DNA from: a virus
Length of the DNA: 26,672 bases
Virus record (IMG/VR): IMGVR_UViG_3300045256_000381
Coordinates: 1-26,672 of that record
Strand: one strand, 5' to 3'
Positions 1 through 25,661 of the stretch are shown one piece after another. The stretch's first letter is position 1; each line of letters starts with the position of its first letter. A program made the position numbers and the translations under genes. Under the pieces are notes generated by a model. The model had not been told where the DNA came from. It saw only the letters and a program-made list of their open reading frames with translations, and searched no databases.

Positions 1-44
1 TGCTGCACTGCTAACTACTTCCCGGTTTTCTCCAGGCACAAGCC

Positions 45-145
45 CATCACCTTCATTTCCTACCCTAAGGGGCTACCATCACGTCTCGCTCGCTTGTGGG
101 GGTAGCAATTTCACTGTAGGGGCTTTCAGCTCCGAAGAACGGTAA
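45..145 (-). repeat. IS605-type right-end / omega-RNA-like unit A
   Basis: Read on the minus strand, this unit starts with a core near TTACCGTTCTT, followed by a GAAAGCCCCTAC box (plus 116-145). A hairpin with stem GCTACC/GGTAGC (plus 72-77 and 101-106) comes next, then a terminal box TTAGGGTAGGAAATGAAGG ending in GATG at plus 45-48. The same order occurs in units at 445-545 (minus), 26091-26206 (minus) and 26243-26361 (plus). Against the unit at 26243 the similarity stops abruptly after GATG, which marks a likely element end. The core translates as LPFFGAESPY, preceded by an open frame, and looks like the tail of a TnpB protein. Assignment to an IS605-type right end is inference from layout and from TnpB remnants elsewhere in the window. 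Confidence 0.5.
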
Positions 146-444
146 GATTGGTTTCATGGGGCGTATCGCTCCGTAGGTGGAGACACTTTACTCCATAATT
201 TTGAAAAGTAAAGCCCAAAATGGGGGGCAAAAAAGGAAAATTCCCCCAAAATTGGAAAAAGTCAACTACCCTGACTCTAAACGGTCTTAGCTTGTCATTT
301 CAAATTTCGTGTCTGGACTAACCGATGGTCGGCATTTCACACCGACCGACACGAAGACAAACTCAAAAAACAATAATAGGCAGGTTGATGGTTACCTAAC
401 TATATTATAATTTTAAATTTTTTTAACAGTTAGTACTATGGCTC
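146..444. other. non-coding, hairpin-rich stretch
   Basis: No convincing gene is seen. A nested hairpin at about 309-355 has an outer stem CGTGTC/GACACG and an inner stem GGTCGG/CCGACC. Another possible stem pairs CTTTACT near 187 with AGTAAAG near 206, and runs of G and C near 222-248 can pair. The stretch lies between two right-end-like units and is probably the interior of decayed mobile elements, but no coding match was recognised. Confidence 0.35.
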
Positions 445-545
445 GCATTCATCCCTTATTTTGAAGGGGTTTGGTCGTTTTTAACTTTCGCTAAACGACC
501 AAACTTTTTAAGAAAGTAGGGGTTTTCGGCTCCAAAGAACGGTAA
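445..545 (-). repeat. IS605-type right-end / omega-RNA-like unit B
   Basis: On the minus strand, a core TTTACCGTTCTTTGGAGCC with a CCCCTAC box (plus 516-545) is followed by a perfect 12-bp hairpin, GTTTGGTCGTTT/AAACGACCAAAC (plus 469-480 and 493-504). A terminal box AAGGGATGAATGC ends at plus 445. The core could encode FFGAENPY, matching the peptide read from unit A. The hairpin shares TTTGGTCGTT with the unit at 26091-26206. Read on the plus strand the hairpin is followed by TTTTT and could also end a plus-strand transcript. Confidence 0.5.
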
Positions 546-555
546 AGCACAAAGT

Positions 556-589
556 AGAAAAAATGGAGACCCGGCAAAGCCGGTTCTCC
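556..589 (-). terminator. rho-independent terminator of the 612-866 gene
   Basis: On the minus strand an 11-position stem, GGAGAACCGGC against GCCGGGTCTCC with one A/G mismatch and a TTT loop (plus 565-589), is followed by ATTTTTTC. It lies 22 bases past the stop of the small minus-strand gene and is well placed to end the 3004-to-612 transcript. Confidence 0.85.
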
Positions 590-611
590 TGTGGTTTGTT
601 CCAATCAGAAC

Positions 612-866
612 TTAGAAAAGGCGTTGGTTACAAACCGTAACAGCAGCGACGTATGCCTCGGAACGGGCGTTGCAAAGGCGGTTAGGCTTTGAACAGGATA
701 CCCGGAACAGACGATTAGTTGTACAAATATAAACTTTGTTACCTTCCGTGTCCACTTTCTTCAAACACTTGAAGTGGCGATACTTAGTGCCGTCATTACG
801 GGTGCCAACACAGCGGTTCCCCGGTAGAGGCGGCAAGGTTGCCAGCATGTCTTCGATAGTTTCCAT
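612..866 (-). CDS. small Cys-containing hypothetical protein
   Basis: An 84-aa protein I do not recognise. It has six cysteines spread over residues 19-79 but no clear CxxC pair, so a zinc site is possible but not shown. There is no signal peptide or membrane segment. The start has a GGAG ribosome-binding site about 7 bases upstream and the gene is followed by a strong terminator. It is the last gene of a likely minus-strand transcript that begins at 3004 with a glycosyltransferase. The short gap of 56 bases to the gene before it supports co-transcription. Function unknown. Confidence 0.6.
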   Translation of the reverse strand: METIEDMLATLPPLPGNRCVGTRNDGTKYRHFKCLKKVDTEGNKVYICTTNRLFRVSCSKPNRLCNARSEAYVAAVTVCNQRLF

Positions 867-922
867 AAATATCTCCGTTAACGGAATAGGACTATAGCGA
901 AGGTATCTAGCAGTATTAACTA

Positions 923-1687
923 TTATTTCATTATCGCTCGGATGTCCTCTAAAGCCAACTCACGATTCCTTTCCACGACCTTCAGGTTGTTTGGATTACG
1001 ACGACAAATCTCTGTAATCGTGCATTCCCCTTCGTGATAAACAAAGCTGTTTCCGGCGATGGCTTGTTTGTAACCGTGCTTTCGCATCCGATAAGCAAAT
1101 TCCTCGTCCTCGTACCCGCACAAGGGGTAAGACTTGATCGGCCCGCCCACATGCTTAAACAAATCTCTATGGCACATGAAGCAGTACATCGACAAGTGGG
1201 TATCATCCAGAATGATCGTGTCGGCCTTTTTCGGCTCCAGAACACCCTTCTGGCGTTCGTCCCCGCCCAAGGGATTGTTTGTCTTCGGTGCGACCATTCG
1301 CACCCCCTTGTCCTTCAGTGTCAAGAGCGGATAAGCCATACTCGTTAACCAATTCAAGTCGTCCACCACACAGTCCGACTGAATGACCACAACCCAGGGG
1401 TTTTCTGTGTTTTCCAGCCCGGCCCGGATCGCCCCGCCAAACCCCTTTTGTTCGTTACACCGCAGACACTTAATTGTCTTCAGTGAATTCAAATCATTAA
1501 TGAATTGCTCGTTCGGCGAATGGTCGTCCACCAAGCAAATCTGGTACGGGTTACTGTAAGTGTTGCGGAAGATGCTCTCTAATAAGCGTCGTACCTTGTC
1601 GTACTGTCCGTGAAACGGAATGATGATGTCCACGGCAGAAAAAAAGTCCCGCCGCTTAATCGGTCGGGCTTCATGTACCTTCGGCAT
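923..1687 (-). CDS. family 2 glycosyltransferase
   Basis: A 254-aa soluble GT-A type transferase expected to move a sugar from a nucleotide-sugar donor. The first strand VDIIIPFHG (19-27) and LVDDHS (52-57) form the nucleotide-binding start of the fold. KGFGGAIRAGL (81-91) matches the GT2 helix. The metal site is the variant IQSDC (102-106), not a plain DxD. GYEDEEF (191-197) supplies the usual acidic catalytic pair and YHEG (217-220) the late histidine. It resembles rhamnosyltransferase-like GT2 enzymes, but donor and acceptor cannot be read from sequence. Its start codon overlaps the stop of the upstream gene (TAATG) and has a strong GAGGAG site, so the two are translationally coupled. Confidence 0.9.
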   Translation of the reverse strand: MPKVHEARPIKRRDFFSAVDIIIPFHGQYDKVRRLLESIFRNTYSNPYQICLVDDHSPNEQFINDLNSLKTIKCLRCNEQKGFGGAIRAGLENTENPWVVVIQSDCVVDDLNWLTSMAYPLLTLKDKGVRMVAPKTNNPLGGDERQKGVLEPKKADTIILDDTHLSMYCFMCHRDLFKHVGGPIKSYPLCGYEDEEFAYRMRKHGYKQAIAGNSFVYHEGECTITEICRRNPNNLKVVERNRELALEDIRAIMK

Positions 1688-2223
1688 TAAATCTCCTCAG
1701 AGAACTGGTCAAACCACTTTTTCAACACCACATCCACTTCGCCTGGGTTGGAGTGGAAGTAAACGAGTGACGAGGTTTGAGCGGCATACTCGGCAAGTTT
1801 AGTCTTGTCATACTTGTTGCCGACGCCGATCACCAAAATCTTACACTCCAAATCCTCTTTATCGTTCAACAAAATGACCTTTTTCAAGCTAATTAGGTCA
1901 TTCGACAAGAAGCTGTCCGTTATCAGGATCAACGCTTTGTCAACGTAGCTGTCACCCCGAGCAGCGACGTATAAAGTTTGCTTCAGTGCAAACCCCAGGT
2001 CGAAATTGAACCCGTCCGTCTCGAAGTTGCCCAGAGCGGCTGTCTTCTCGCCCTGCGAGTACACAGAGTCAAGAAGCTGTGGATGGTACAAGTAAAAACC
2101 GTCTTCGCTCTCCGTTTTACAGACGAACCGAACCAGGGACTTACGCACTTCGTCCACCACACGCCTACCCTCATGTTCACGAGAAGATAGGTGGAGTACG
2201 AGTCCAATATTTTTAGTTTTCAT
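1687..2223 (-). CDS. vWA-like domain protein with degenerate metal site
   Basis: A 178-aa protein whose strand and motif pattern fits a von Willebrand A (Rossmann-like) fold: IGLVLHLSS (6-14), KALILITDSF (96-105) and CKILVIGVGNKYD (127-139). The canonical metal-binding DxSxS is replaced by HLSSR (11-15), and the usual threonine loop is not evident near 70-80, although the aspartate in ITDSF is kept. Metal-dependent ligand binding is therefore doubtful. It overlaps the upstream glycosyltransferase gene by 11 bases and the downstream one by 1 base, so it is made together with two sugar-transfer enzymes. A scaffold or adhesion role is possible but not shown. The fold call rests on pattern only. 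Confidence 0.65.
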   Translation of the reverse strand: MKTKNIGLVLHLSSREHEGRRVVDEVRKSLVRFVCKTESEDGFYLYHPQLLDSVYSQGEKTAALGNFETDGFNFDLGFALKQTLYVAARGDSYVDKALILITDSFLSNDLISLKKVILLNDKEDLECKILVIGVGNKYDKTKLAEYAAQTSSLVYFHSNPGEVDVVLKKWFDQFSEEI

Positions 2224-3004
2224 TGCGTCCCTTTCGTTTGTTGCGATGTTTGACTCGGATCGGGTTGTTGAAATCTTTCAGGGGGTGGAGAAGCGAGGCA
2301 TTCGGGAAGTCCTCGGCCTCCGTCAGTTCCGGGCGGAACCGACAGGGGAAATATTCGTAACTGCCATGCCATCGACCCGGTGTGTAAGTGGCGAAAACCC
2401 CGATGTTACCGCCCATTTCTCGGGCCAGTGTCGGATACATGTGTTCAGAAACGTCGTATCCGTCGTACCCCGGCATAAATCCCTGAGAGAACGAGTTGGT
2501 GGCTGCGATGAATCGGTCTAATAAATTAATTTCTCGCAGTCGGTCGATGAATTTACGGCTGAAGAAAAGCATGCAGCCAAGAAGGTAATACCCCTTAGTT
2601 ATCTTCTTACCGATGATGGCTTCGACGATAGGAATCCTCACTTCGTTTACCGCTCCGTCATTTCCCAACATCCAAATGTTCTGATCGTCAGCCATCTGGA
2701 GGTTATATTTAAAACGGTCGGACGCAACCAGGGCGTCGTAATCCATGTAACAATACCAGTCCGAATCGTACATCTCGGTCAGGTTTTTTAACCCAAGGGC
2801 AACGTTTCGGTAAGGGGCACGGGGATAACCATGTTTGAAGCCTTTAATGTATGGTACAGGCAGTTTAACGTCGGAGAAATTGTTGCTGCTGGCACCGTCA
2901 ATGACCAAGAGAATGTCTTTGGTCATGTGGGCTTGAATCGACTCCACCGTGTCCAGCACCAAATTAGGATTGGCGTGAATATTTAAAAATGTTGCTACTC
3001 TCAT
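2213..3004 (-). CDS. glycosyltransferase-like protein (GT-A fold)
   Basis: I place the start at the ATG at 3004 because the product then begins with a fold-like strand MRVATFLNIH. An in-frame upstream start would add 19 unrelated residues and overlap the divergent promoter region. The 263-aa product has LLVIDGAS (32-39), as in GT2-type nucleotide-binding loops, and WYCYMDYDALV (83-93) with DYD as the DxD metal site. The C-terminal half is rich in aromatic residues and has no known module I can name. It is the first gene of a tight minus-strand cluster (overlaps of 11 and 1 bases with the next two) and is divergent from a methyltransferase gene 41 bases away. Donor and acceptor are unknown. 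Confidence 0.75.
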   Translation of the reverse strand: MRVATFLNIHANPNLVLDTVESIQAHMTKDILLVIDGASSNNFSDVKLPVPYIKGFKHGYPRAPYRNVALGLKNLTEMYDSDWYCYMDYDALVASDRFKYNLQMADDQNIWMLGNDGAVNEVRIPIVEAIIGKKITKGYYLLGCMLFFSRKFIDRLREINLLDRFIAATNSFSQGFMPGYDGYDVSEHMYPTLAREMGGNIGVFATYTPGRWHGSYEYFPCRFRPELTEAEDFPNASLLHPLKDFNNPIRVKHRNKRKGRNEN

Positions 3005-3045
3005 AGTTACACTCAGGAAATAGAATAATATAGTAAGAGGTGAAA
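3005..3045. promoter_or_regulatory. divergent promoter region
   Basis: The 41 bases between two divergent genes contain the AT-rich, nearly symmetric TAGAATAATATAGTA, which offers a -10-like box in both directions. On the plus strand an AGAGGTG ribosome-binding site at about 3036-3041 points to the ATG at 3046. No clear -35 box fits inside the gap. Confidence 0.4.
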
Positions 3046-3963
3046 ATGGCTGACAAAACAAAAGTCAACTTACTCATGGATAAGTTAGCACAAGTATTCC
3101 AAGAACTGAAAACCGCACTGAACGATGAACCCGCAACACCCGTTGTGGCTCAGTCTGCCCCGACTGCTCAACCGGAGTTAAACAATTTTGACCGGCTCCG
3201 GCAAGCCCTCGAAACAGACCGTTGGCCGGAGGCTGTCAACAAGAACCTCGTGTGCGATCCGAACTCCGAGATTGACAAGATGGAACGTGGGCGTGGGATT
3301 GTTGAACTTCTAGTAGAGGACAATTTGAGCGGACTGAAATTCCTTGACTACGGCTGTGGCGAAGGGTACTCCGCATTCTACGCTTCCGAAAAGAACCCAA
3401 CTATCTCTGTCGGTTACGACATTAAAGAACAAAACTGGAAACACTTCCAAAGCAAACCGAACCTATTGTTAACTAATGACAGAAAAGCAGTCGCAGGCAA
3501 CGGTCCTTACGATGTCATCCTGATGTTTGACGTAATCGACCACCTGGACGGTGCTACCCCGGTGGAAATTCTTGCAGACGCCGCCAGCCTACTCTCGCCG
3601 ACCGGCAAAATTTACATGCGGACACACCCTTACACCTCTCGCCACGCTACGCACCTGTACCACAATCTTAACAAGGCATTCGTACACTTAGTCTTCACTG
3701 AAGATGAGCTAAAACAAATCGTCCCGGACACAAAGCACGTTGAAAAGAACTTAGGCGTAACCACCCCAATACTGTCTTACGGCAAATGGATCGAAGAAGC
3801 CAAACTTACCGTCGTTCATAGACGAGAAATCAAAGACAAGGTTGAGAATTTCTTCAAAATCCCGCAAATCGCCGAACGGATCATGAAAAACACCAAAATG
3901 ACTTCGTTCCCTGAGTTTCAGTTATCAATACAATTCATCGATTTTATACTAAAAAAATCCTAA
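3046..3963 (+). CDS. class I SAM methyltransferase (paralog 1 of 3)
   Basis: The ATG at 3046 is chosen over a GTG at 3040 because AGAGGTG is well spaced from it. The 305-aa product has a polar N-terminal helix (1-45) and then a Rossmann methyltransferase core. KFLDYGCGEGY (98-108) is SAM-binding motif I, GYD (123-125) the acidic end of strand 2, and YDVILMFDVIDH (155-166) motif IV-like. A block RTHPYTSRHATHLY (192-205) followed by LNKAFVH is shared with the genes at 8471 and 10260, as are WPEAV (60-64) and a C-terminal QFIDFILKK. The acceptor is unknown. Clustering with glycosyltransferases suggests a sugar O-methyltransferase. Confidence 0.85.
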   Translation: MADKTKVNLLMDKLAQVFQELKTALNDEPATPVVAQSAPTAQPELNNFDRLRQALETDRWPEAVNKNLVCDPNSEIDKMERGRGIVELLVEDNLSGLKFLDYGCGEGYSAFYASEKNPTISVGYDIKEQNWKHFQSKPNLLLTNDRKAVAGNGPYDVILMFDVIDHLDGATPVEILADAASLLSPTGKIYMRTHPYTSRHATHLYHNLNKAFVHLVFTEDELKQIVPDTKHVEKNLGVTTPILSYGKWIEEAKLTVVHRREIKDKVENFFKIPQIAERIMKNTKMTSFPEFQLSIQFIDFILKKS

Positions 3964-3984
3964 CAAATATATTAAGAAATTAGT

Positions 3985-4467
3985 TCATGACTTCGTGGAA
4001 TCTCTCAAAAAGGCATAAAAGTCGCTGGCAGAACGCTCCTCAAAATCACCCGTGTTTTCGAAATACCGAACAGGGCACCTGAGTCTGGGGTAATCAACCC
4101 CACGATACCATTTATCAAACATCGGCCGGTGCTGATCGGGGTCACTAACCTCGACTCGGTACTGGGCGATGATTTTTTCGTAAGGGGCGTAGAGAACGTA
4201 CACTGTCGTCTCTGGTGGAAAATAAAGACCAGTCGGATCACTCAAGTGCCAACCATCCAGGGTAAAATTTGTATTACAAAACCAACTAACGTGAGCCATT
4301 GCTTCACTGATAGGAAGCCCGAAAGTCTCGATTTGATGCCATGGAAAGAGAGCGTCAAAACAAACGTAACGGTTGGGCAGCAATTTGGCGAAAGTGGTTT
4401 TGCCCACGCAACTTTGACCAAAAATAATGATTTTATCACTGTGCGGCGAGACGTTTAATACTTTCAT
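3985..4467 (-). CDS. P-loop NTPase, kinase-like
   Basis: A 160-aa protein with a textbook Walker A, GQSCVGKT (17-24), after a short hydrophobic strand IIIFG. The size and the early P-loop fit small nucleoside, sugar or shikimate-type kinases. No firm LID or base-recognition motif is visible, so the substrate is unknown. In this setting a kinase that supplies an activated sugar or sulfate donor is conceivable, but this is only inference. It is convergent with the methyltransferase gene (21-base gap) and stands alone on its strand. AAGG lies about 10 bases before the ATG. Confidence 0.75.
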   Translation of the reverse strand: MKVLNVSPHSDKIIIFGQSCVGKTTFAKLLPNRYVCFDALFPWHQIETFGLPISEAMAHVSWFCNTNFTLDGWHLSDPTGLYFPPETTVYVLYAPYEKIIAQYRVEVSDPDQHRPMFDKWYRGVDYPRLRCPVRYFENTGDFEERSASDFYAFLRDSTKS

Positions 4468-4610
4468 CCCAATCTACCTTATATCACTCAGTACTATTTT
4501 TTTTTTAACCGACTGTATACCACACCTTTTTCAATTGTTCAAAAACACCATGCTGGTAGCTTTAATATCTTATTTTTTGAAAAAATCCAGAATATTATGA
4601 TGCATTTAGG

Positions 4611-5246
4611 ATGATTACTATTGTAACTGTTAATTTCCACAGCAACGACTTCCTTGAGCTTCTTCGAGAGTCCATCGACAGGTTTAGTGTAACAAGTCCT
4701 CAATTTCTTGTCATCGACAATACCATAGAAAACAAGGGGCATGGCGAAGCCATGAACCTCGGCGCAGCCCAGGTAACAACAGACTACACGATGTTTGTTG
4801 ATGTTGATACCCACTTTACGCTCAACGCCTGGGATGAAATGCTACTCACCGCTATTGAAAACTGCGAAGCTATCTTCGGGCGAGGCGTTCCCGTAAAGCC
4901 CGTCCGTCCTGCCTGCATGTTCATGCAGTCTTCAGTCGCAAAAAACTACGATTGGAGTGCAACCCCGGGCTACAGAGGGCACCGGGTCACACCTGACGGT
5001 TTCGATGTGGGTGTAAAAGCATACTGTAACATTGTGAATGACGGCAAGAAGCATGCCTTCTTCGAGACGATTCCGAACCGTTATGGGACAGCCAACGGAG
5101 AAGAATTCTGTTGGCAAGGCGTTCCGTTCATTTATCATCATTGGCACGGAACACATTTGGCAGCCCGGCAGACCGACTTTCCGTCAGTGGACTTACTGGC
5201 GGACAAGAAGAAACTTTTTGACTCAATTCCTTGGCGGTATCTTTAA
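4611..5246 (+). CDS. family 2-like glycosyltransferase
   Basis: A 211-aa GT-A type transferase. MITIVTVNFHS (1-11) is the typical first strand, FLVIDNT (32-38) the nucleotide-binding loop, GHGEAMNLG (43-51) the helix after it, and FVDVDTHF (62-69) carries the DVD metal site. The C-terminal part has GEEFCWQG and HHWHGTH, where the histidine cluster may replace the usual acceptor-site motif. The family is usually longer, so this is a compact form. No good ribosome-binding site precedes the ATG, and TATTAT lies about 13 bases upstream, so a very short leader is possible. Its last 119 bases are also coding on the other strand. Confidence 0.8.
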   Translation: MITIVTVNFHSNDFLELLRESIDRFSVTSPQFLVIDNTIENKGHGEAMNLGAAQVTTDYTMFVDVDTHFTLNAWDEMLLTAIENCEAIFGRGVPVKPVRPACMFMQSSVAKNYDWSATPGYRGHRVTPDGFDVGVKAYCNIVNDGKKHAFFETIPNRYGTANGEEFCWQGVPFIYHHWHGTHLAARQTDFPSVDLLADKKKLFDSIPWRYL

Positions 5247-6039
5247 CGAATTTACGAGTTAGTTCGCTTTGTAATGCGTAATACTCTGCGTAAGTCAGCG
5301 GCATATTCCACTTCAGCAAGTAATAAATAAAATTGTATAGAGACAATTTGATGAGTTCTTTGTCTGACAACACCTTCTCGTCATGTTGCTTATTGTGATG
5401 GTAGTGGAATTCGTTGACCTTCGTGTCAACGAATTTACAACCGCCCACTTTCGCCGTCATGTGGAAATCCGTGTCGGCGAACGCACCGTGTCCACAATAC
5501 CAGGGATCAACCCCGTTGAGGCGATAAAAGGTGGATTTAGTGAAGGCGGTGTTTCCTGACATGACGTTTTTGCCCGGTCCAGGCGGGGGATCGGCGAAAC
5601 GAGGTTCATAACGGAATGCCGCCAGAGATCGCTCGTCGAGCAAGAAATCATCTCGTGGCAATAAATCCTGTAAGACCTGTAAAGACATGTCTTTAAGTAC
5701 GAAATAATGATGAGAAGAAAAAATAAATACGTCGTCCGAGATCAGTTTTTTGATTAACGATAGGTACTCCGGGGGTAGAAGCCGGTCGGAATCTAAATAC
5801 CAGACGATATCATGTTTGGCGGTTGCTACGCCAGCCTCCCACATGTTCGACCAGGAGAACTTGCCGTTAATACGGGGGACAACAATAGGAGTGAAATCAC
5901 GAGGAACGAGCCTTGGTTTGCCATCACAAACTAAAACTTTTTGACAATTTTCGTATCCTTGCATAGCTTCGAGGCAACGGATCGTGTAGTCTAGCTGAAT
6001 TTCACGGTCCGGTGAGAACATAATAAATATTGAAACCAT
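5128..6039 (-). CDS. GT2 glycosyltransferase with galactosyltransferase-like C-terminal region
   Basis: The start at 6039 puts the fold's first strand MVSIFIMFSPD at the N-terminus. Earlier in-frame starts would overlap the divergent gene at 6049. In the 303-aa product WYLDSDRLLPP (80-90) carries the DSD metal site, NVMSGNTAF (158-166) and GVDPWYCGHGAFADTDFH (176-193) form a galactosyltransferase-type C-terminal region, and a late histidine follows in FHYHH. It shares this layout with the gene at 12948 and is probably a diverged paralog. That gene ends where this one reaches about RKFVKD. The last 35 or so residues here, rich in S, P and R, read antisense to the end of the 4611-5246 gene and look like a run-on extension. 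Confidence 0.85.
   Translation of the reverse strand: MVSIFIMFSPDREIQLDYTIRCLEAMQGYENCQKVLVCDGKPRLVPRDFTPIVVPRINGKFSWSNMWEAGVATAKHDIVWYLDSDRLLPPEYLSLIKKLISDDVFIFSSHHYFVLKDMSLQVLQDLLPRDDFLLDERSLAAFRYEPRFADPPPGPGKNVMSGNTAFTKSTFYRLNGVDPWYCGHGAFADTDFHMTAKVGGCKFVDTKVNEFHYHHNKQHDEKVLSDKELIKLSLYNFIYYLLKWNMPLTYAEYYALQSELTRKFVKDTAKELSQKVSSCPPVSPLTESRSAGLPNVFRANDDK
6022..6029 (+). promoter_or_regulatory. T4-type late promoter-like box (AATAAATA)
   Basis: AATAAATA fits the NATAAATA late motif of T4-type phages and lies 19 bases before the ATG at 6049, which would leave a leader of roughly a dozen bases. It sits inside the N-terminal coding part of the opposite gene. A single short match in AT-rich DNA, so weak on its own. 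Confidence 0.3.
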
Positions 6040-6048
6040 AGATAAACC

Positions 6049-6789
6049 ATGCTCACGTTCAAAAATTTCATGATGGTCGAAAGCGGTTGGTTCGGAGGAA
6101 GAACCCAATATGCCCACGGCACGGGTCAAAATTTTTCGATGGGCAGGGACATGTTGTACAACCGACAGTACACTTCCAGAATGTACTCGCCAAAGCTGCC
6201 CATTGGCGTTGACTTCGATACGTGGTTACACCAAAAAATAAGTAACATAACAAAATTCTTGGATTTCTTATACCACCGTTATCAGGACAATGACCTTGTG
6301 GTGGTCAACAAACGGCTTTGTATAGCGTCATCCGAGATAGAACACTGGGATAAACAAATAGTAAAAAAGCTCATAAATAATGGCGTGCTGGTACAAATGC
6401 CGTCTCAGAATGTGATGTGTCGATGGTTAGAGCGTGACCTATCAAACTTCATTCCGAGCTTCAAGCATCACCAGCCGGTGATAATGAAAGATGGCGCAAC
6501 TAAAGTCAAGAGCATGTTTTTTACCACAGAAGAAACGTTGAGCCGTCTTGTACAGAACCCGGAAATGTCCGCAGAATTGAAAAAGTGGATCGCACACGGA
6601 TGGATGGCTCAGAAAGCTATGCCGCTCACAGGGATCATATTTTACGCTATAGACACGATACGTATTGTTCTCCTTATGCAGCGGCAAAAAGACATCTTCG
6701 GTGCCATGAATATAGCAAAGAAAATAGGCAACCTAGCGTCTCAACCTGGAGCGTATCAAGCCAACCCAAACTCTAACGTCAGATATTAA
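6049..6789 (+). CDS. hypothetical protein with capsid-targeting-like N-terminus
   Basis: A 246-aa protein without a recognisable domain. Its first residues, MLTFKNFMMVE, match the T4 internal-protein capsid-targeting peptide pattern (MKTYQEFIAE in T4 IPIII) and the next gene's MITFKEFIKE. In T4 such peptides direct proteins into the prohead and are cut by the gp21 protease after an (L/I)xE site. Here MVE is a near match only. A hydrophobic stretch around 190-205 (LTGIIFYAIDTIRIVLLM) could be a membrane or core helix. A late-promoter-like box lies just upstream, and the next gene follows after 8 bases. An injected or internal head protein is a reasonable inference. Confidence 0.65.
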   Translation: MLTFKNFMMVESGWFGGRTQYAHGTGQNFSMGRDMLYNRQYTSRMYSPKLPIGVDFDTWLHQKISNITKFLDFLYHRYQDNDLVVVNKRLCIASSEIEHWDKQIVKKLINNGVLVQMPSQNVMCRWLERDLSNFIPSFKHHQPVIMKDGATKVKSMFFTTEETLSRLVQNPEMSAELKKWIAHGWMAQKAMPLTGIIFYAIDTIRIVLLMQRQKDIFGAMNIAKKIGNLASQPGAYQANPNSNVRY

Positions 6790-6797
6790 ATATAAAA

Positions 6798-7223
6798 ATG
6801 ATAACCTTTAAAGAATTCATAAAAGAACAAGATGAAAACCCGTATCAGACATTTCTGAAGATGCGTCATGGGTTGGGTTGGGGTGATCTAAAACAAGCCC
6901 CGAAGGGAACCGCTACGGCTGTAGCAGATGCGGAGACGACATTACCGACTCGTACCATGACTCGCAACCCTTTGGAAATAAAACTGTCCAATGAAGTCCA
7001 AGCCGGGCACAAAATGGGCAGTATAGTTCCTCGGTCTGTCATTGCACGCATGACGGCAAACAACCCGGAAGATATCCGTTCGTTTATTGCCCCTGACCGG
7101 CTCAAAGCCGGTCAGATTTACCCGTTCATTCAACAGCGTCAAGCAGGTCGAGATGTCGGTGGCATCGTATACAACCAAATGTTCCCGCTACACAGCTTAC
7201 TCCGGCTCCTCAACCTTCACTGA
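6798..7223 (+). CDS. small hypothetical protein with capsid-targeting-like N-terminus
   Basis: A 141-aa protein beginning MITFKEFIKEQ. Against the T4 IPIII targeting peptide MKTYQEFIAE it keeps M, T, E, F, I and E at the same positions, and IKE fits the gp21 cleavage rule (L/I)xE exactly. The remainder is polar and unrecognised. It is co-directional with the previous gene and has no clear ribosome-binding site, so it may depend on coupling. Its stop TGA lies inside a repeat copy (7222-7246) that looks like a TnpB tail. The last few residues may therefore come from an insertion and the original C-terminus may be lost. Probable internal virion protein. Confidence 0.65.
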   Translation: MITFKEFIKEQDENPYQTFLKMRHGLGWGDLKQAPKGTATAVADAETTLPTRTMTRNPLEIKLSNEVQAGHKMGSIVPRSVIARMTANNPEDIRSFIAPDRLKAGQIYPFIQQRQAGRDVGGIVYNQMFPLHSLLRLLNLH

Positions 7224-10259: not shown

Positions 10260-11261
10260 ATGCACCAAAATCAATGGGACGAGTTGGTAAAATACGGACA
10301 ACAGCTTGAATTTAACCTGAATCGGCTCAATGAAACCAAAGACGAGATTGTCAAAGTACAAGCGATCCTCCAGTTCATTATACAGACCAGAAATGATGAC
10401 CTACGGGTAGCCGTTAGCCGACTGGCAGACAGGTTTACCCTTCTGGAACAACAACTCATCAAACACGGGCTGCCGAAAATCGACTATTACGACCATGAAT
10501 TCACCAGTATCAGAAAACTCGTCGAGAGTACAGACTGGCCACTTGCCGTCGAGAAAATAGTCCGAGACGAGAACTATGAGAAGGCAAAAGCGGCGAGCAT
10601 TCTTGACATGATTGTGATCGAAAGTGTGGCCGGAAAGCGTGTTCTGGACTTTGGGTGTGGCGAAGGTTATCTCACATCGGCTATTGCCGCTAGGGGGGCA
10701 ACATTGGCCGTTGGGTACGACCCGGCTGGCAAGAACGAGCGATTTCAAAACAAACTTTTAACTAAAGACAAGATCATCGTCGCCAACAACGTCCCGTATG
10801 ATTTCATCATCGTGTACGACGTATTGGATCATTGCGAAGACCCGATTGGCGAACTGAAATTCATTGAAGAAGTAGCATCCATACAGACGAAGGTGATCGT
10901 TCGTAACCACCCATTCTGTGCTCGTCACGGCAAGCACCTGTTCACAACGCTCAACAAGGCGTTCTTACATATGATCTTCGACGAGATGGAGTTGGTACGG
11001 CTGTGTGGCACCGCCGGGCTGCCGACGAAATTGATTCTGCGTCCCGTGTCCGAGTACCGGGCGTGGCTCGCTAACACCAAGTTTAGCGTCGAGATGGAGA
11101 CGCCGGTCACGACGCCCGTCGAGCCATTCTTTCTGAACCCAGAAAACTACATGGTCCGAGACAAGTTAATCGGGAAGTATATGGGCGAAGACCCTACACG
11201 CCACATGCAGATCGACTTCATGGACTACATATTGAAGAAAAATAATCAATTTGTCATATGA
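10260..11261 (+). CDS. class I SAM methyltransferase (paralog 3 of 3)
   Basis: A 333-aa protein with a longer N-terminal helical region (1-75, likely coiled coil) than its paralogs, then the methyltransferase core: KRVLDFGCGEGY (126-137) is motif I, VGYDPAG (151-157) ends strand 2, and YDFIIVYDVLDH (180-191) is motif IV-like. WPLAV (93-97), the NHPFCARHGKHLF block (216-228), LNKAFLH and the C-terminal QIDFMDYILKK are shared with the genes at 3046 and 8471. The three are clearly one family, duplicated and spread over both strands. It overlaps the convergent gene at 11254 by 8 bases. Acceptor unknown; a sugar is likely from context. Confidence 0.85.
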   Translation: MHQNQWDELVKYGQQLEFNLNRLNETKDEIVKVQAILQFIIQTRNDDLRVAVSRLADRFTLLEQQLIKHGLPKIDYYDHEFTSIRKLVESTDWPLAVEKIVRDENYEKAKAASILDMIVIESVAGKRVLDFGCGEGYLTSAIAARGATLAVGYDPAGKNERFQNKLLTKDKIIVANNVPYDFIIVYDVLDHCEDPIGELKFIEEVASIQTKVIVRNHPFCARHGKHLFTTLNKAFLHMIFDEMELVRLCGTAGLPTKLILRPVSEYRAWLANTKFSVEMETPVTTPVEPFFLNPENYMVRDKLIGKYMGEDPTRHMQIDFMDYILKKNNQFVI

Positions 11262-12042
11262 TAACTTTTCGCCCCCTCATACCCTCTATGATATCTCGCA
11301 GTTTGGGAATGTTGGGCAAAAATTTGTCCCGAGAGGGCATATCGAAAAACTTCTTAAAATCTGCGGTAACGTATTTGTGAACCTTGTACTCGGCTGACAA
11401 ATTGTATTTGGCACAAACTTTATTGGCCTCTTTAATTGAAAACTCGTAAGTCAGGTTGTTTCGATAATAGTTGTCGCCGTGGAAGCATGCCCTGGTGTGA
11501 ACGGCAGGCGTTTCGTCAATAATACCGATCTTATCCGTCGGGTTTCCTAAAATCATGTTCCATATGAACTCGATACCCCAATGTGACTCATTCTCGGTAA
11601 AGGTGTGTTTAACCGCCTGGAGACACACCCGTGAAAAAATCGGACACATGATCTCCACCCAATTCGTAAAACGCACCCTGGAGAACGGGACGGCCGCACT
11701 GATGGGAATAGAGATAAAGCCAATGATGCCGGGCTGACCCAACATCAGGTCAAACTCCTTGAACGAATTGAACATCTTGCTGACGCCATCAGCGTCAAGA
11801 TAAATGTCATCGTCCGGCACCCAAATGTTCTGATAATTATTGAACAAATCAGGGTTTGCTTCAAGAGCTTGTAACAAAATCTTATATTTAGTACCCTTAA
11901 AAGTGGAATAGAACTGTCCGTCCTTCTCGTACCGTCCGGTCACGTCGCCGTAGTAGTTAATGTACACATCAAAGTCTGAACAGTACAGCCAGTGTTGATG
12001 CAAGGAGGTATCGCCCGCCGCTACGAAAACGAGGTTTTTCAT
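11254..12042 (-). CDS. DUF707-like putative glycosyltransferase
   Basis: A 262-aa protein. YQNIWVPDDDIYLDADGV (70-87) contains an acidic PDDD/DAD cluster after a strand, as in GT-A metal sites, and HWGIEFIWNMILG (154-166) resembles the GWG-type motif of the DUF707 group, whose members are thought to be glycosyltransferases. The family call is tentative. Its start overlaps the stop of the upstream sulfotransferase-like gene (ATGA), with AGGA about 8 bases before, so the two are coupled. The C-terminus is basic (GMRGRKVII) and overlaps the convergent methyltransferase gene by 8 bases. Confidence 0.65.
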   Translation of the reverse strand: MKNLVFVAAGDTSLHQHWLYCSDFDVYINYYGDVTGRYEKDGQFYSTFKGTKYKILLQALEANPDLFNNYQNIWVPDDDIYLDADGVSKMFNSFKEFDLMLGQPGIIGFISIPISAAVPFSRVRFTNWVEIMCPIFSRVCLQAVKHTFTENESHWGIEFIWNMILGNPTDKIGIIDETPAVHTRACFHGDNYYRNNLTYEFSIKEANKVCAKYNLSAEYKVHKYVTADFKKFFDMPSRDKFLPNIPKLRDIIEGMRGRKVII

Positions 12043-16798: not shown

Positions 16799-16859
16799 TT
16801 TCCTGCTTTCTGAAATCCACCAAAATCGGTGGACTCTAAAATCGCCCTCTTTCAAGGGC
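16799..16859 (-). repeat. hairpin pair after the TnpB-like remnant
   Basis: On the minus strand directly after the remnant's stop codon come two hairpins, GCCCT/AGGGC (16844-16859) and TCCACC/GGTGGA with loop GATTTT (16816-16833). Subterminal hairpins at the 3' end of a tnpB gene are typical of IS605-type right ends. They could instead belong to the intron's upstream structure. TTTTGGTGGATTT recurs at about 17435 in inverted orientation, near the other end of the remnant. Confidence 0.4.
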
Positions 16860-17383
16860 TAAACCTTGCTCCCTGCGAGCAGTTCTTGCAGGAAGACTTC
16901 GCCTCGGAGAGTTTCACTCCGACACCAACTATTGCCAACGAACTCTTTTAGGTCCGTCAGTCGAACTGGCAACGCTGTGAGCGTGGCTTCAATGTTGTCG
17001 TTCAGATGCTTCCACAAAGACCATGAATGTACTTTTCGGTTTCTGTACTTTGCTGCAAGCGTTCCAAAAACCAGTTCTTTCAATCACTTTGAGCAAGCCT
17101 TATAGAACGACAATTTTTTGTTATATCCCATGCCCCTTCTGTCAATCACGTAGGCAGCAGACTCATGGATCGTTACCTTGTACATCCACCTGTACTTGTA
17201 CTTGCCAATGATGCTGGTGAACGCCGGATTTACTTTGCGATACGCAACTCCATGTTCTACGCACTTGCGTTCCAGCAAGGTCAGGAACTTCCTCCAGACG
17301 AAATTACTTTGCTTTCTCTTCCACTGGCGGCTACCAGTTTTGTCCTTGAGTTCGCCGTTCACGACGACATATTCCTTGGTCAG
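16859..17383 (-). pseudogene. TnpB-like (IS605 OrfB-related, no zinc ribbon) remnant
   Basis: One reading frame of about 175 codons is broken by TGA at 17084-17086 and bounded upstream by TAA at 17384. It contains WRKFLTLLERKCVEHGV, then RKVNPAFTSIIGKYKY and IHESAAYVIDRRGMGY. These match the C-terminal half of the TnpB-related OrfB group (VNPAYTS, IG-x-KY, AAxVIxRRGLG), which lacks the CxxC zinc ribbon of classical TnpB. After the TGA the frame continues with KVHSWSLWKHLN, also family-like. The RuvC-I part is missing, so this is a 5'-truncated, inactive copy. Where TnpB is active it is an RNA-guided nuclease. It lies directly downstream of the 610-aa structural gene and abuts the intron. Confidence 0.65.
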
Positions 17384-19484: not shown

Positions 19485-19805
19485 ATGGGTAAATTTAAAG
19501 ATTGGGTCAGGCAACACCGCGAGTCATTTGGAGCGAAGTACGGATTCGACCAAGACAAAGCTGGAGACTACGAAAACGATCTGAAGAATCTCGCTAAGTT
19601 ATTAGCGAGTACCTACCACACCGAATTCTTTACGTTTCTTCAGCAATTAGCAGAAGACGAGAAAAACTCAGAACTCAAAGAATTGATTGACAAAGTGGCA
19701 CATTATCGCAAGAGTGCGTTCCGAGACGGCGACCTGCGTAACAAAGAACCCGAGGAAGTTGTAGCCCCGATGGCCGACCGGTGGTCCAACAATGGTGAGG
19801 GATAA
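19485..19805 (+). CDS. small charged hypothetical protein
   Basis: A 106-aa, mostly helical and charged protein I do not recognise. It starts MGKFKDWVRQHRESFG and has no cysteine, signal peptide or membrane segment. A strong ribosome-binding site (AGAGGTAAT) lies just before the ATG after a T-run. It is divergent from the structural gene at 19333 and ends in a bidirectional terminator shared with the portal gene. Its isolated plus-strand position between two minus-strand head genes suggests a separately controlled accessory gene. Confidence 0.7.
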   Translation: MGKFKDWVRQHRESFGAKYGFDQDKAGDYENDLKNLAKLLASTYHTEFFTFLQQLAEDEKNSELKELIDKVAHYRKSAFRDGDLRNKEPEEVVAPMADRWSNNGEG

Positions 19806-19836: not shown

Positions 19837-22383
19837 TCACAACTCTGACATGTCGATTTCTTCCTCATCCTGCTCCGACCCGTAATCCTTGATTTCCAAA
19901 TCGTACTTGGCAATATCGTCCAACGCCGGTTGCGGGAGCGGCTGACTACCGCCTATAGGTGGAGTTTCTGCTGTCATGCCCCCGCCCGGCATTACCCCAG
20001 GACCACCCGGAGGCGGCGGGGCTGCGCCAGGAACACCACCCAAAGGATCGCCCCCGCCAGCCATCGGGTCGCCACCCAACATCGGTTGGACTTGACCGGA
20101 CTCCGCACCGACCTGCTGCTCGTCGTCCGATGGCAAACCAACACCCAAGAGTTGCGGGTTCTGAGCAATAATCTGCAACTTAAGGTCTTCGATCTTCTGA
20201 ATTTTCATACGGGCCAACATGATTTTGGCTTCGTCTTCCGAGTATTTCATCCACTTTGTTAAGATGTCGAAGTCGCTCATCAACTGTGACCCCTTCAAAG
20301 ACCCGGCATTACCGATGCGTGCCGTAACGACCTCAGACCGGGTAAGTTCACGCCAGTCCGAAGGCGGCGTCATCTTAATCACCAAGTCCTCGTACATATC
20401 CTCCGGGAACCCACGAAGTTTCAGGTGGCGGTCGCACAGTTCCCATAACCCGTCTTCTATGTGGCTCTGAAGCCGCTCGATCATCCGGGCGAACTTCACA
20501 TCCTGGGCTGACAACGAAATTCGATTCGCCTGAAAGTCCTCGTTGTTGAAATAATTCTTCGGGAAATTCATCGACACGAATAACTTGTTGCGGAAGTAAA
20601 CCGTATCGTCAATTTCACCCAGGTTTTGTGCCCCCGGAAGAGTCTCTATACGGGTGTTCGAGTTCGGCCGGATCGGAATCCAGTAGTCCTCGTCCGCAGC
20701 CGGTGCGTGCCACCGTTCTTCTACGGCGGACGCGCCATCAGCGTTAAACTGTTTCGGCACCTTTTTCTTCTTAAACTGATCCTTCATTCGCTCAATGAAG
20801 GCTTCGGCACGGGCACCACTATACTGTTGTGTATCAATATAAAACACACGCCGTTCGGGGGCACGAGTCAGTCGGTACACCAACATGGCATCTTCCATAA
20901 GACGCAACTGGTGGGCCGGACCACGGGCAGCTTCTATTAGTGAAACGCCATACGGGTAGAACGTCTTCCGGTCATCCCCAATTCTGATATGCACAATTTG
21001 CTGCGGGGCAAATCGAATCGCCTTCGCCTGCATCAAATCCAAGTCGGTCGCCTTCGTAACCTCGACACGAGCCAAAGAGTCGTAGTCCGGGCCTTCCTTT
21101 GATTGCTGGAACTCTACGAGTCGTCCTTTCGTGGTCTCAATACGGTACATCGTATCCGGCGGAAGCGGGACAATGTTAACGATACCACGAGACGGTTTCT
21201 CAGGGTCGATTACGATTTCCCAGAAATCGTCGCCGTTAATAAATAACTGCTTTGCTCGGTTCCAGCACTTCTTTTGATCGAGATTTAACATCTTTCGGTG
21301 GAAGCACAGGAACTCAAGTTCTTCTTGAACCTCCCGGTTCTTGCACACTATCTGGAAAGCCCGCCCTTTATCATCTTTCTGACAGTTGTGGGCCACACCC
21401 CAGTCCGTACAAAAATTCTCGTATTTCTCTACCGACAGGTCGTACACCTTTCGAACGCCGCCCGGGGCAATACCGATCACCCTCCGAGCCGGCTCCTTCT
21501 TCGCAAGTTGTTTGAGTTCAGCATTACTAAACCCGCACCTTTCCATGTGCCGCTTGATCGTCTCGTAGTCGCCGTGTCCCGCCTTGTAAATCTGGCGGAC
21601 GTTTAACCCTTCAGACAACATGCGACAAAACTTGTTGCCCTTCTCGTAAAACGGGTCGCTGTGTCCGGTCTTCCACTCGTCCACGAACTGCCGCTCATTG
21701 ACCCAACCTTTGCTGTTAGTAAAGATGCGAGGGAACTGACGCACCTTCGGCTGGTCTTTACCGACCCGAGGGTTTACTCGGTAAAACGGCATCAACAAAT
21801 CACCTTCCTTCAGCTCACCTGCTGTCAGCCACTTTTGGTTTTTGGCAAGGATGCGATGATCTTTGGTGGCGACGAAGGATGACCCGTCGTCGAGCATGAC
21901 CCGAACGGTTTCTTCTTCCTTAACAAACCGAGGGTCATAGGCCCAACCCAATGTGTAATCTTCTTTTGCAAAGTCCCAGCAATATACCAGAAAGCGTTCA
22001 TCCTTCTTATTTTCCGCAAGCCATTTGAGGGTACGAAACCCCCCGTCGTATGCCGGGGTTGCGACCTTAGTATCACCCGCCAGACATGCCTCGTCGGCAA
22101 AGACAGTCATCGCCATCTCGATCTCGGGTATATTTCGTAACCGCTCGTACTCTTTATAACGGTGGAGGCGGTTAGTGACCGTTGACAGGTCAACCATCTC
22201 ATTCGTGTCACGAAGACGAACAGACCCACGGCCGCCCAAAGTGCCGTCGGCCATAGCCCGCACGTCGGGCATGGCATCCGGTTGTGATACACCGGCGTTT
22301 GGAAAGTCACGCCCGTCTCGCCGAGCGAGTGGGTCGTTCTGAAACGCTCGTGTGAAAAGCTTGAAAAAATCGTACCAAGCCAT
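19837..22383 (-). CDS. portal protein (gp20-like) containing an intein
   Basis: The 848-aa precursor would give a mature portal of about 614 aa after removal of the 234-residue intein at 100-333. T4 gp20 is 524 aa. The exteins join as ...VFADEA-CQKDDKGRAF, matching the T4-type region where an 'xxADEACQ' helix leads into the portal stem core. Later motifs such as YPYGVSLIEAARG and NYFNNEDFQANRISLS are typical of gp20 homologs. The portal is the 12-subunit ring at one head vertex through which DNA is packed. The C-terminus is a Gly/Pro-rich, probably flexible tail followed by an acidic end. AGGA about 9 bases upstream and a GATAAATA box 51 bases upstream serve the start. It lies upstream of the structural gene and downstream of the terminase, as in T4-type modules. 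Confidence 0.9.
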   Translation of the reverse strand: MAWYDFFKLFTRAFQNDPLARRDGRDFPNAGVSQPDAMPDVRAMADGTLGGRGSVRLRDTNEMVDLSTVTNRLHRYKEYERLRNIPEIEMAMTVFADEACLAGDTKVATPAYDGGFRTLKWLAENKKDERFLVYCWDFAKEDYTLGWAYDPRFVKEEETVRVMLDDGSSFVATKDHRILAKNQKWLTAGELKEGDLLMPFYRVNPRVGKDQPKVRQFPRIFTNSKGWVNERQFVDEWKTGHSDPFYEKGNKFCRMLSEGLNVRQIYKAGHGDYETIKRHMERCGFSNAELKQLAKKEPARRVIGIAPGGVRKVYDLSVEKYENFCTDWGVAHNCQKDDKGRAFQIVCKNREVQEELEFLCFHRKMLNLDQKKCWNRAKQLFINGDDFWEIVIDPEKPSRGIVNIVPLPPDTMYRIETTKGRLVEFQQSKEGPDYDSLARVEVTKATDLDLMQAKAIRFAPQQIVHIRIGDDRKTFYPYGVSLIEAARGPAHQLRLMEDAMLVYRLTRAPERRVFYIDTQQYSGARAEAFIERMKDQFKKKKVPKQFNADGASAVEERWHAPAADEDYWIPIRPNSNTRIETLPGAQNLGEIDDTVYFRNKLFVSMNFPKNYFNNEDFQANRISLSAQDVKFARMIERLQSHIEDGLWELCDRHLKLRGFPEDMYEDLVIKMTPPSDWRELTRSEVVTARIGNAGSLKGSQLMSDFDILTKWMKYSEDEAKIMLARMKIQKIEDLKLQIIAQNPQLLGVGLPSDDEQQVGAESGQVQPMLGGDPMAGGGDPLGGVPGAAPPPPGGPGVMPGGGMTAETPPIGGSQPLPQPALDDIAKYDLEIKDYGSEQDEEEIDMSEL
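21385..22086 (-). other. mini-intein in the portal protein
   Basis: Residues 100-333 of the portal precursor. It starts with C at 100 in the block A pattern CLAGDTKV, has block B VATKDHRIL (171-179) with the conserved T-x-x-H, block F RKVYDLSVEKYENF (311-324), and block G GVAHNC (329-334) with the terminal H-N and C as the first C-extein residue. All catalytic residues for class 1 splicing are present. There is no LAGLIDADG nuclease. Instead, residues about 220-300 contain NVRQIYKAGHGDYETIKRHM, which looks like a helix-turn-helix of the kind found beside homing endonucleases. Self-splicing is expected. Mobility is probably lost. Confidence 0.9.
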
Positions 22384-22901: not shown

Positions 22902-23131
22902 CCGTCTTTTGGGAACTGAGTTTCCGCACTTCCTACGGTACATAATTACTATGGTGTGGTTGTGACTGTTTTTTAATCGCTATTCTAAAGAGGCTATTGC
23001 CTGTTTGTCTGCCCCTGCGGCGTTAGCCCGCACAGGCGGTCACGCCTTGGGCATAACTGCTTCCGTGCCGCAAATCCGGTGAACGGATGAAAAGTCATGT
23101 CGAGCAGGCATGATTATGGTATCTAGCCGGA
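22902..23131. other. 230-base structured intergenic region
   Basis: No gene is seen. Several stems can form: GCCTGT/ACAGGC (about 22999-23036), TGCCC/GGGCA (about 23012-23053) enclosing TGCGG/CCGCA, ATCCG/CGGAT (about 23074-23088) and TCATG/CATGA (about 23096-23114). The section ends CGGATGAAAAG, which recalls the terminal box of the right-end-like units. It is T-rich just after the plus-strand gene (GTTTTTT at about 22968). Could be a decayed element end or a structured RNA. Confidence 0.35.
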
Positions 23132-23798: not shown

Positions 23799-25661
23799 TT
23801 ATACCATAATATAGTTACTTACCAACCAAATTGGACAGAGAATTGACCACCCGAATTCCTTGAACAACGTGTCGAAAGGTCTTTTGTATTCTTTCTTTAC
23901 GGTTTCGTCCACTTCGACATCGAACTCATCCTTGTACAAGTCCTGTGGGCTTAACCAAGTTTCCGGTGCCCCCTTTTCGAGTTCCTTTTTGATTTCCTCA
24001 TACACCTTCGCCTTGAAAGTCTCAGTTAATTCCTCCGGCATGCCGTCGCCGACAATCGGAGCAGACCGGCCAGAAATCTCCCGGATGTATAGGGCGAAAC
24101 ACAGGCTCATGATCGAGTCGTCATGGTAGCCCTTCGGTGCCTCGGCCTTCTTTGTTACTTTGTTAAATATAAAGTGCTTCAACTCGTATACCGTGCGACG
24201 GCTGCGGAGGATTAAACTCTTCATCAACAAACGGGTCTGGAGGGTTTCTAACAACATCGGACGACTGTTCTTTGTCGTCTTTAAACCGGCTTGGTGGTTT
24301 TCGTCATAGTACAGATTCTCGTAGTCAAGGTCGTGTTCAAGCTTGCTCAAAATCGTCAGCCCACACTTCTCCCTTTCAACCACGCACAAGGCATTATTAT
24401 ACATAATCCCGACCTGTGCGACGATCTGGGCGAATATGTGCATCGGACAGTTGTTACTGTAAAACTGAGCGCACTGTTCACCCGTGTTGGCGTCGATAAT
24501 CTCAATTGTTGAGTTGTCGCCGTCTTCACCAATGCCTTCAGCGGCGTCCACGCCCATGATATACTCACGTCCCTCAATCGGTTCACGCCACACGAGCATG
24601 GCGGCTTGATCGGCACGGGCCTGAAACTTCGTCGCCTTGTTCGCCCAATCCTCGAACAGATAGCGAACGGGTTCGATTTCCCGGACCGCCAAATCCAGAT
24701 CGTTCAGAATGTTGGACGGGATAAACGTGTCCCCGCCACCGAGGAAGTCACCCAACACTTCCTGGGCAAAGCCCTTTTCCCCAAGCTGTGAGCGGATGAT
24801 CCGTACCCACTCGTCGTCGTTGTACTCCGGGTGTTGGGTGTAATCCAACTGGATGATGTTAAAGTCGTTTTCTTTCCTTTCGGCCTGATGGTACATTTCT
24901 TCATACCAGTTACCGATGCCGTTCACAGTGGAAATGACGATCACGCTACCACCAGTCGAAATCGTCGGGAACACGTCATTCCAGAACTTGTGCATGTTCG
25001 GAATGAACGCCGCTTCGTCGATGATGAGATAAGAGATAGCACGACCACGGGCCGCTTCCGGGGTGTAAAAGAACAACTTGCAACCAGTATCATTGAAAAT
25101 CTTCTGGTGGTCGTTATTCTTCTCCATCACCGGAGCCATCCAACTAGGTAATTCCTCGATAGCCCGCTTCACGATTTCACCGGCGGCGATAGCTTCACGG
25201 TCGGTCTTCGACACGACCATGATCGTTTCGTCCATCTTAAACAAACACCGCCAGAGTGCCCAAATCGTCGTGACCGTAGTCAGCCCCCCTTGACGGAACT
25301 TACGAATGATGTTAAAACGGTGCTTTTCATACTCACTGATTGCTAAACGCTGGTAGGCGTAAGTGATAAACGGCAAAAGCCCTCGCTTCGGGTGGGCAAT
25401 TTTAACATACTTGTGGCAAAAATAGTTAAAGGAGAGAGCGCATCGCTTGATCTCAAGTTGCTGTCGTTTCTCGTCATACCTCTCAATCTGCTCTTCTGTC
25501 TCCATCGGGTCGATAGTGTACTCAAATTTCTCGAACTCATAGTACGGCAAAGGATAGTTGTCTATGTAGAACTCTTCTAGCGTCTTGTATCGCCCTCTCC
25601 AGTTCGGATCGACGAAGGTTTCTTCCTTCTTCAATCTTTTCTCGTCATCACGTTTAGACAT
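23799..25661 (-). CDS. terL: large terminase subunit (gp17-like)
   Basis: A 620-aa packaging motor and nuclease, close to T4 gp17 (610 aa). The ATPase half has a Walker A-like RKFRQGGLTTV (120-130), where the usual GKT is GLT, Walker B YLIIDEAAF (211-219) with the catalytic Glu after the Asp, and coupling motif ISTVNG (243-248). The nuclease half has GVDAAEG (369-375), VVEREKCG (426-433) and GYHDDSIMSL (510-519), the three acidic groups of the RNase H-like site. A non-Lys Walker A of the form RQxGxTT/S is known among terminases. The last 15 or so residues (WSILCPIWLVSNYIMV) are hydrophobic and unlike gp17 tails; they border a possible mobile-element remnant. AGGTGA lies before the ATG. Confidence 0.95.
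   Translation of the reverse strand: MSKRDDEKRLKKEETFVDPNWRGRYKTLEEFYIDNYPLPYYEFEKFEYTIDPMETEEQIERYDEKRQQLEIKRCALSFNYFCHKYVKIAHPKRGLLPFITYAYQRLAISEYEKHRFNIIRKFRQGGLTTVTTIWALWRCLFKMDETIMVVSKTDREAIAAGEIVKRAIEELPSWMAPVMEKNNDHQKIFNDTGCKLFFYTPEAARGRAISYLIIDEAAFIPNMHKFWNDVFPTISTGGSVIVISTVNGIGNWYEEMYHQAERKENDFNIIQLDYTQHPEYNDDEWVRIIRSQLGEKGFAQEVLGDFLGGGDTFIPSNILNDLDLAVREIEPVRYLFEDWANKATKFQARADQAAMLVWREPIEGREYIMGVDAAEGIGEDGDNSTIEIIDANTGEQCAQFYSNNCPMHIFAQIVAQVGIMYNNALCVVEREKCGLTILSKLEHDLDYENLYYDENHQAGLKTTKNSRPMLLETLQTRLLMKSLILRSRRTVYELKHFIFNKVTKKAEAPKGYHDDSIMSLCFALYIREISGRSAPIVGDGMPEELTETFKAKVYEEIKKELEKGAPETWLSPQDLYKDEFDVEVDETVKKEYKRPFDTLFKEFGWSILCPIWLVSNYIMV

Follow-up and report, generated by a model that had tools for sequence, protein, structure and literature searches.

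The window analysed here is one virus record of 26,672 bases, in which 31 genes were called by a simple longest-ORF rule. Two adjacent genes of this window encode orphan proteins, and both proteins begin with a short peptide of T4 capsid-targeting type (Table 1). Both open reading frames were confirmed at the positions given in the table, and in each of them the start is the earliest one possible behind the preceding stop codon. The ATG of the second gene follows the stop of the first after 8 bp; the two genes therefore probably form one operon. The tag of the second protein, MITFKEFIKE, carries aromatic residues at positions 4 and 7, a hydrophobic residue at position 8 and Glu at position 10, and thus fits the T4 arrangement exactly. 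The tag of the first protein, MLTFKNFMMVE, is a near fit: Phe4 and Phe7 are present, but position 8 is Met and the Glu is shifted to position 11 (M-V-E). An earlier note on this DNA had called the latter peptide the weaker match, and this holds. The note had also aligned MITFKEFIKE with the T4 IPIII peptide MKTYQEFIAE at six of ten positions and had seen an exact (L/I)xE cleavage site; with the IPIII letters read from the T4 record, both the six identities and the site (I-K-E) were confirmed.

Table 1. Features of the 26,672-base window (G002, closest large relative; LR756511.1, relative in the annotated phage collection).
Feature	Position	Strand	Remarks
Inverted repeat, copy near one end	41-145		~81% identical copy near 202 kb of G002
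Family-2 glycosyltransferase	4614-5243		Pfam
One-mismatch late-promoter box AATAAATA	6022..6029	+	upstream of first tagged gene; weak
First tagged protein, 246 aa	6049..6789	+	orphan; no family or relative found
Tag MLTFKNFMMVE of first protein	6049..6081	+	Phe4, Phe7, Met8; cleavage-like site M-V-E
Second tagged protein, 141 aa	6798..7223	+	orphan; no family or relative found
Tag MITFKEFIKE of second protein	6798..6827	+	Phe4, Phe7, Ile8, Glu10; site I-K-E
DUF707 protein	11257-12042		Pfam
Group II intron with reverse transcriptase and TnpB-type zinc-ribbon remnant	14947-17362		where synteny with G002 ends
Head-cluster gene, 610/620 aa	17501..19363	-	91% identical to G002:121568-123400; in G002, gp21 directly next
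Possible third tagged gene, MGKFKDWVRQHRE	19485..19805	+	small reverse gene beside portal; score rank 2 of 31
Portal (gp20), T4-type, intein-bearing	19837..22383	-	PF07230, 2.7e-68; PF14890, 4.6e-10
2H/Acb1-like gene, two short end pieces	22867-23135		intact copy beside the terminase in G002
Large terminase subunit, T4-type	23799..25661	-	PF03237, 6.9e-14; 93% identical in G002, 47% in LR756511.1
Inverted repeat, copy near other end	26243-26423		see first row

For the first protein, no Pfam family, no PHROG below an E-value of 0.28 and no phage match by tblastn was found, and no relative was confirmed in viral_contigs, in the 15 terminase-related records described below or in genome_contigs. 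Searches with the second protein in Pfam, PHROGs, phages (tblastn), viral_contigs and the 15 related records yielded nothing convincing (in one of them, only hits of E-value 0.6). Since neither body has detectable relatives, homology lends no support to a function for either of them. AlphaFold2 predictions from single sequences reached pLDDT values of 38.7 for the first and 38.9 for the second protein, both too low to be used. Weak matches of the tagged bodies to PDB sequences (guanylate kinase, E-value 0.021; nanobody, E-value 0.087) were judged to be chance.

The tags themselves have close counterparts. MITFKEFIKE is identical at nine of ten positions to MKTFKEFIKE, the start of T4 gp61.1, and MLTFKNFMMVE shares nine of 11 residues with MLTFKKFMMAE, which begins a protein encoded at 161061 of the sister contig G002; the bodies of these two proteins are unrelated. 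An exact pattern of the MLTFKKFMMAE type matched in IMG/VR only G002 and one contig with the same protein, and a further G002 tag of similar spelling, MLTFRSFME, is located at 128573. Near-identical MLTFK tags thus sit on unrelated bodies, which suggests that a tag lasts longer than the protein body to which it is attached.

The window derives from a large T4-headed phage, because it carries T4-type terminase and portal genes and its relatives are large phages. The nearest terminase in the annotated phage collection belongs to the uncultured phage LR756511.1, which comprises 595,163 bases (47% identity over 95% of the query). Related terminases were found at 14 IMG/VR loci; two of these, on contigs G001 (56.9 kb) and G002 (245 kb), are 93% identical to the query. 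Splice junctions of the portal intein could also be read in G002 and G003, whose inteins measure 232-234 aa; in LR756511.1, this was possible for the C-terminal junction.

The earlier note had placed the two genes in a sugar-transfer block far from the head genes. This location was corroborated by the Pfam matches to a family-2 glycosyltransferase and a DUF707 protein in the block, and the genes are located outside the head cluster. Matches to a sulfotransferase and to another glycosyltransferase remained below the Pfam cut-off, and three block genes appear SAM-methyltransferase-like, as read by eye from a motif of the LDYGCGEGY type. Relatives of two block genes lie at 203.6-205.3 kb of LR756511.1, a long way from the terminase of that phage. 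Similarity to G002 ends at 17497, 4 bp past the 610-aa gene; beyond this break follow the TnpB-like remnant and the group II intron and then the sugar-transfer block. The break reflects either a rearrangement or an assembly join. We considered that the contig may be chimeric, with left and right parts from different genomes: mobile elements sit at the break, and the tetranucleotide correlation between left and right parts is 0.76 as compared to tile means of 0.91-0.95 in four other records (minima 0.30-0.93). However, the repeat common to both ends of the window and to G002 gives mild support for a single genome.

The exact T4 late-promoter box TATAAATA does not occur in the 26,672 bases. The late-promoter-like box which the earlier note had reported before the first tagged gene contains one mismatch and is one of 33 such sites in the window, as compared to 16.8 expected; this evidence for a late promoter is weak and was not relied on. 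Upstream of genes in the window, G002, G008, G009 and LR756511.1, NATAAATA was found in 52 regions in sense and in 21 regions in antisense orientation; this mild bias may point to late promoters of T4 type in the clade.

The frequency of the tag was determined with a motif taken from T4 genetics, M-x(1,2)-[FYW]-xx-[FYW]-[ILMVF]-x(1,2)-E, in which the spacing may vary by one residue on either side. It was present in 2 of the 31 called genes of the window, whereas 500 shuffles of the N-termini gave a mean of 0.02 (maximum 1); at the 164 internal Met residues of the window it was absent. Twelve of the 15 related records were tiled and their genes called by the same longest-ORF rule. Here, 27 of 2196 called starts fitted the motif, as compared to a mean of 1.72 and a maximum of 9 in 200 shuffles; among internal Met residues, 7 of 7165 did so. 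The search for further proteins with this start, proposed in the earlier note, thus added nothing to the two genes within the window but was successful in its relatives. When any alternative start was accepted, 35 of 2196 genes matched as compared to 7.3 after shuffling; the called starts (27 versus 1.7) were preferred, because alternative starts raise the shuffled background. Tagged genes numbered 13 of 1115 in LR756511.1 and 8 of 301 in G009; enrichment across the clade is uneven, since the closest large relative G002 has just 2 of 352 (shuffled mean 0.15). Furthermore, the counts are not fully independent, because identical proteins recur in G001 and G002 and because tandem paralogs account for four of the G009 tags. 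Among control phages, the motif was found in 0 of 365 genes of phiKZ, 0 of 260 of S-RSM4, 1 of 398 of KVP40 and 0 of 520 of phage G (first 381 of 497.5 kb). T4, the positive control, gave 3 of 271, namely IPII, IPIII and gp61.1.

Additionally, the genes were ranked with a score trained on regex hits in other phages, which is circular for the relatives and held out only for ranking the 31 genes of the window. The two tagged genes ranked first and third. Second was the gene at 19485, a possible third tagged gene in which the aromatic pair is present and the hydrophobic-x-Glu site is not clear; its counterparts at the same place in other records have starts like MSMFQQWLRDRNLKEG.

A form of the tag with Trp at position 7 was searched in IMG/VR. 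The exact pattern MKTFxEW(hydrophobic)xE occurred in 39 stretches on 38 contigs, ten of them at least 100 kb and the largest 533 kb in size; a permuted pattern of the same residues matched five contigs, three of which carry one identical protein. gp21 was detected in 18 of the 38 contigs with the Trp form, in 17 of these above the cut-off, and in 7 of the 10 largest contigs, as compared to none of the five contigs with the permuted pattern. This is an association and not a rate, because several of the 38 contigs carry the same protein, larger contigs hold more bases and the comparison is made without a random-contig base rate. In 18 records, a looser Trp pattern gave 44 matches in 11 of 13 large records and one match in five control phages; the reversed pattern gave none in the same 18 records. 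Ten of the 13 large records had been chosen for holding the tag, so that the independent matches are their extra copies and the nine in LR756511.1. G002 and G009 had no match to the Trp form and use the Phe form.

T4 gp21 cuts after hydrophobic-x-Glu, and a preference for this sequence was found in the tags. In the 15 tags with the Glu one place later, a set that includes the window, the residue two before the Glu was I, L, M, V or F in 12 cases (background 0.304, p=1e-4), at a position left free by the regex. With the Glu two places later, the preference was absent (4 of 12). Of 32 tags, 13 had A, S or G directly after the Glu (background 0.18, p=0.002). Furthermore, the conserved columns of the tag coincide with the positions needed in T4 IPIII for targeting (4 and 7) and for processing (8 and 10), as given in PMC9026906.

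The gp21-type protease which the earlier note had suggested to look for is absent from the window, as is gp23, but gp21 (PF03420) was detected in 8 of the 15 related records, among them both sister contigs, G001 and G002. In G002 it is located at 123468-124133, directly after the 610-aa head-cluster gene; the window lacks gp21 because synteny with G002 ends just before this place. The motifs GEL(N/D)HP and G(I/V)SSRGxG, which presumably hold the catalytic His and Ser, are common to T4 and five aligned clade sequences; S-RSM4 has GELGHP. A second, diverged S77 protease match (E-value 3.5e-9) was observed at 242621-242989 of LR756511.1, far from the head cluster. gp23 was present in all six of the 15 related records that were searched, and LMNE-A of the clade proteins (LFNE-I in LR756511.1) aligned with FLTE-A of T4 gp23, which we take to be its cut site.

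Altogether, 80 tagged proteins with a median length of 138 aa were collected. They fall into 68 body clusters; the same leader thus stands on otherwise mostly unrelated proteins of this phage group. The alignment comprised 45 of 49 tagged references and both window proteins, four doubtful sequences having been dropped by eye. Most tagged bodies matched no family. Matches included an Acb1/2H phosphodiesterase on G014:11806 (2.5e-8), a 2H phosphodiesterase of the tRNA-ligase type (tRNA_lig_CPD, 7.7e-9) on W01:411779 of LR756511.1, an HD domain on G009:94199 (2.7e-5) and a weak Nudix match on G009:160843. For the Trp form, 33 of 40 matches were scanned for families, six repeats of an included protein and one 19-aa frame being left out; at least two of the 33, L191 and L220, are packaging proteins in which the pattern fell on an internal Met. 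The Trp-form bodies comprise a Nudix protein (L221, 8.7e-17), for whose tag an upstream stop was not found within 150 codons, an RNA ligase (L206, 1.6e-10), a SAM-lyase-like protein (L216, 4.7e-6, 1 bit below the cut-off), DUF6321 and a peptidoglycan-binding domain (L226). Acb1, SAM lyase and RNA ligase are known types of counter-defence protein; the case of Acb1 is weakened because relatives of the Acb1-like protein elsewhere do not all carry the tag.

Tagged genes also occur in arrays. Contig L189 (IMGVR_UViG_3300048796_000091) contains at 419-6233 an array of six tagged genes, four consecutive, then one untagged gene and two consecutive, with starts of the type MITFK(Q/E)(Y/F)(L/I)xE and bodies of 204-284 aa. 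Four tandem paralogs of 566-583 aa are encoded at 169016-177625 of G009 (L059, L060); their tags are spelled differently, and each is followed by a conserved (A/G)GLEHR(A/P)FNK stretch. HGT-like stretches in the tagged proteins of L189 and in G002:161061 had raised the reading of an ADP-ribosyltransferase, which Pfam and PDB searches did not support.

We consider it likely that the tags are T4-type head-loading tags on injected cargo which is trimmed by gp21 and probably serves counter-defence. The N-terminal peptide, aromatic at residues 4 and 7, would bind to the scaffold core while the prohead is assembled and draw the protein inside, and a gp21-type protease would then cut after the Glu of I-K-E or M-V-E. 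The mature bodies would stay beside the DNA in the head and reach the bacterium upon injection; there, the cargo would most likely act in host takeover or counter-defence before any phage gene is expressed. Capsid targeting, already suggested in the earlier note, has gained from the enrichment across the clade at N-termini only, the hydrophobic-x-Glu site, the presence of gp21 and gp23 in relatives and the association of the Trp form with gp21 in IMG/VR; the window itself holds neither gp21 nor gp23. Judged from these data, capsid targeting is highly probable. Injection of the tagged proteins appears fairly probable, and for a role in counter-defence the chances are about even.

Alternatively, the tags may target the head, but both proteins may be head-assembly or core components with a role in the virion rather than injected effectors. 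According to PMC5694885, T4 gp21 cuts scaffold and core proteins too; furthermore, a tagged 1076-aa protein is encoded in the head cluster of LR756511.1 (W01:516905-520135), and the MCP itself begins with an FLNE-like site. However, neither of these orphan genes has a relative in the 15 terminase-related records, unlike head genes, which are conserved, and the tagged proteins are variable and dispersed like the T4 internal proteins; we therefore regard this explanation as unlikely. The motif may also be a signal for another kind of localisation or interaction, such as recruitment to an intracellular phage compartment or into a complex, which merely resembles capsid targeting, and the frequent Trp at position 7 in the clade, where T4 has Phe, would agree with this. 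But the hydrophobic-x-Glu site and the small next residue are kept when shifted by one, and the Trp form is found together with gp21; such a signal is quite improbable, because pure binding would need no protease site. Chance similarity of two ordinary N-termini, conceivable for a short motif with an imperfect first tag, is very improbable in view of the excess in the window (2 of 31 versus 0.02 expected) and in the clade and of the controls with internal Met and permuted pattern.

Head loading of injected cargo, which we prefer, would closely follow T4. The internal proteins IPI, IPII and IPIII likewise have an N-terminal peptide of 10-11 residues with aromatic residues at 4 and 7, a hydrophobic residue at 8 and then Glu, unrelated bodies behind a common leader and genes away from the head cluster; of the T4 head machinery, gp20 and gp17 are present in the window and gp21 and gp23 in relatives. 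In contrast to the T4 proteins, both bodies of the window show no relation to any known family and are only predicted to be packaged; the relatives tag more proteins, often with Trp at position 7 and in some cases with the Glu one residue later. The inner-body and ejection proteins of phiKZ and SPN3US, likewise giant phages, are trimmed by the prohead protease and ejected, as stated in PMC5694885 and PMC13282480, but they mostly have long propeptides (often >100 residues), and phiKZ lacks short tags among its 365 genes. A long cleaved propeptide of the phiKZ type was not found in the two window proteins, whose candidate Glu is residue 10 or 11. In the literature searched, which covered few subscription journals, capsid targeting was not found for huge phages and, among jumbo phages, only for SPN3US.

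In PMC12373910, T4 Ip1-Ip3 are described as sharing only the leader, each blocking a different GmrSD enzyme; by analogy, specific targets are predicted for the tagged cargo. According to the review PMC13282480, no anti-defence protein other than the injected Tad1 has yet been described from jumbo phages. It is an evenly balanced question whether in huge T4-headed phages (to ~600 kb) the tag, often MKTFxEWLxE, constitutes a general export system for a large and fast-changing injected arsenal, which would neutralise nucleotide-signalling, restriction and tRNA-cutting defences prior to transcription. If so, the tag would list from sequence alone those unknown genes of huge phages that act at time zero. 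Most genes of huge phages are without known function, and a tag marking cargo would provide a small, testable set of first-minute effectors. The tags may also be of use as head-loading signals for very large capsids.

T4 gp61.1 (NC_000866 18966-19130), whose start is like that of the second protein, differs from it as a 54-aa annotated hypothetical protein. By its start it may be a capsid-targeted protein; its gene is close to the counter-defence genes 61.2-61.5, among which 61.2 (AdfA), 61.4 (TifA) and 61.5 (Dmd) are named as such in PMC9391042.
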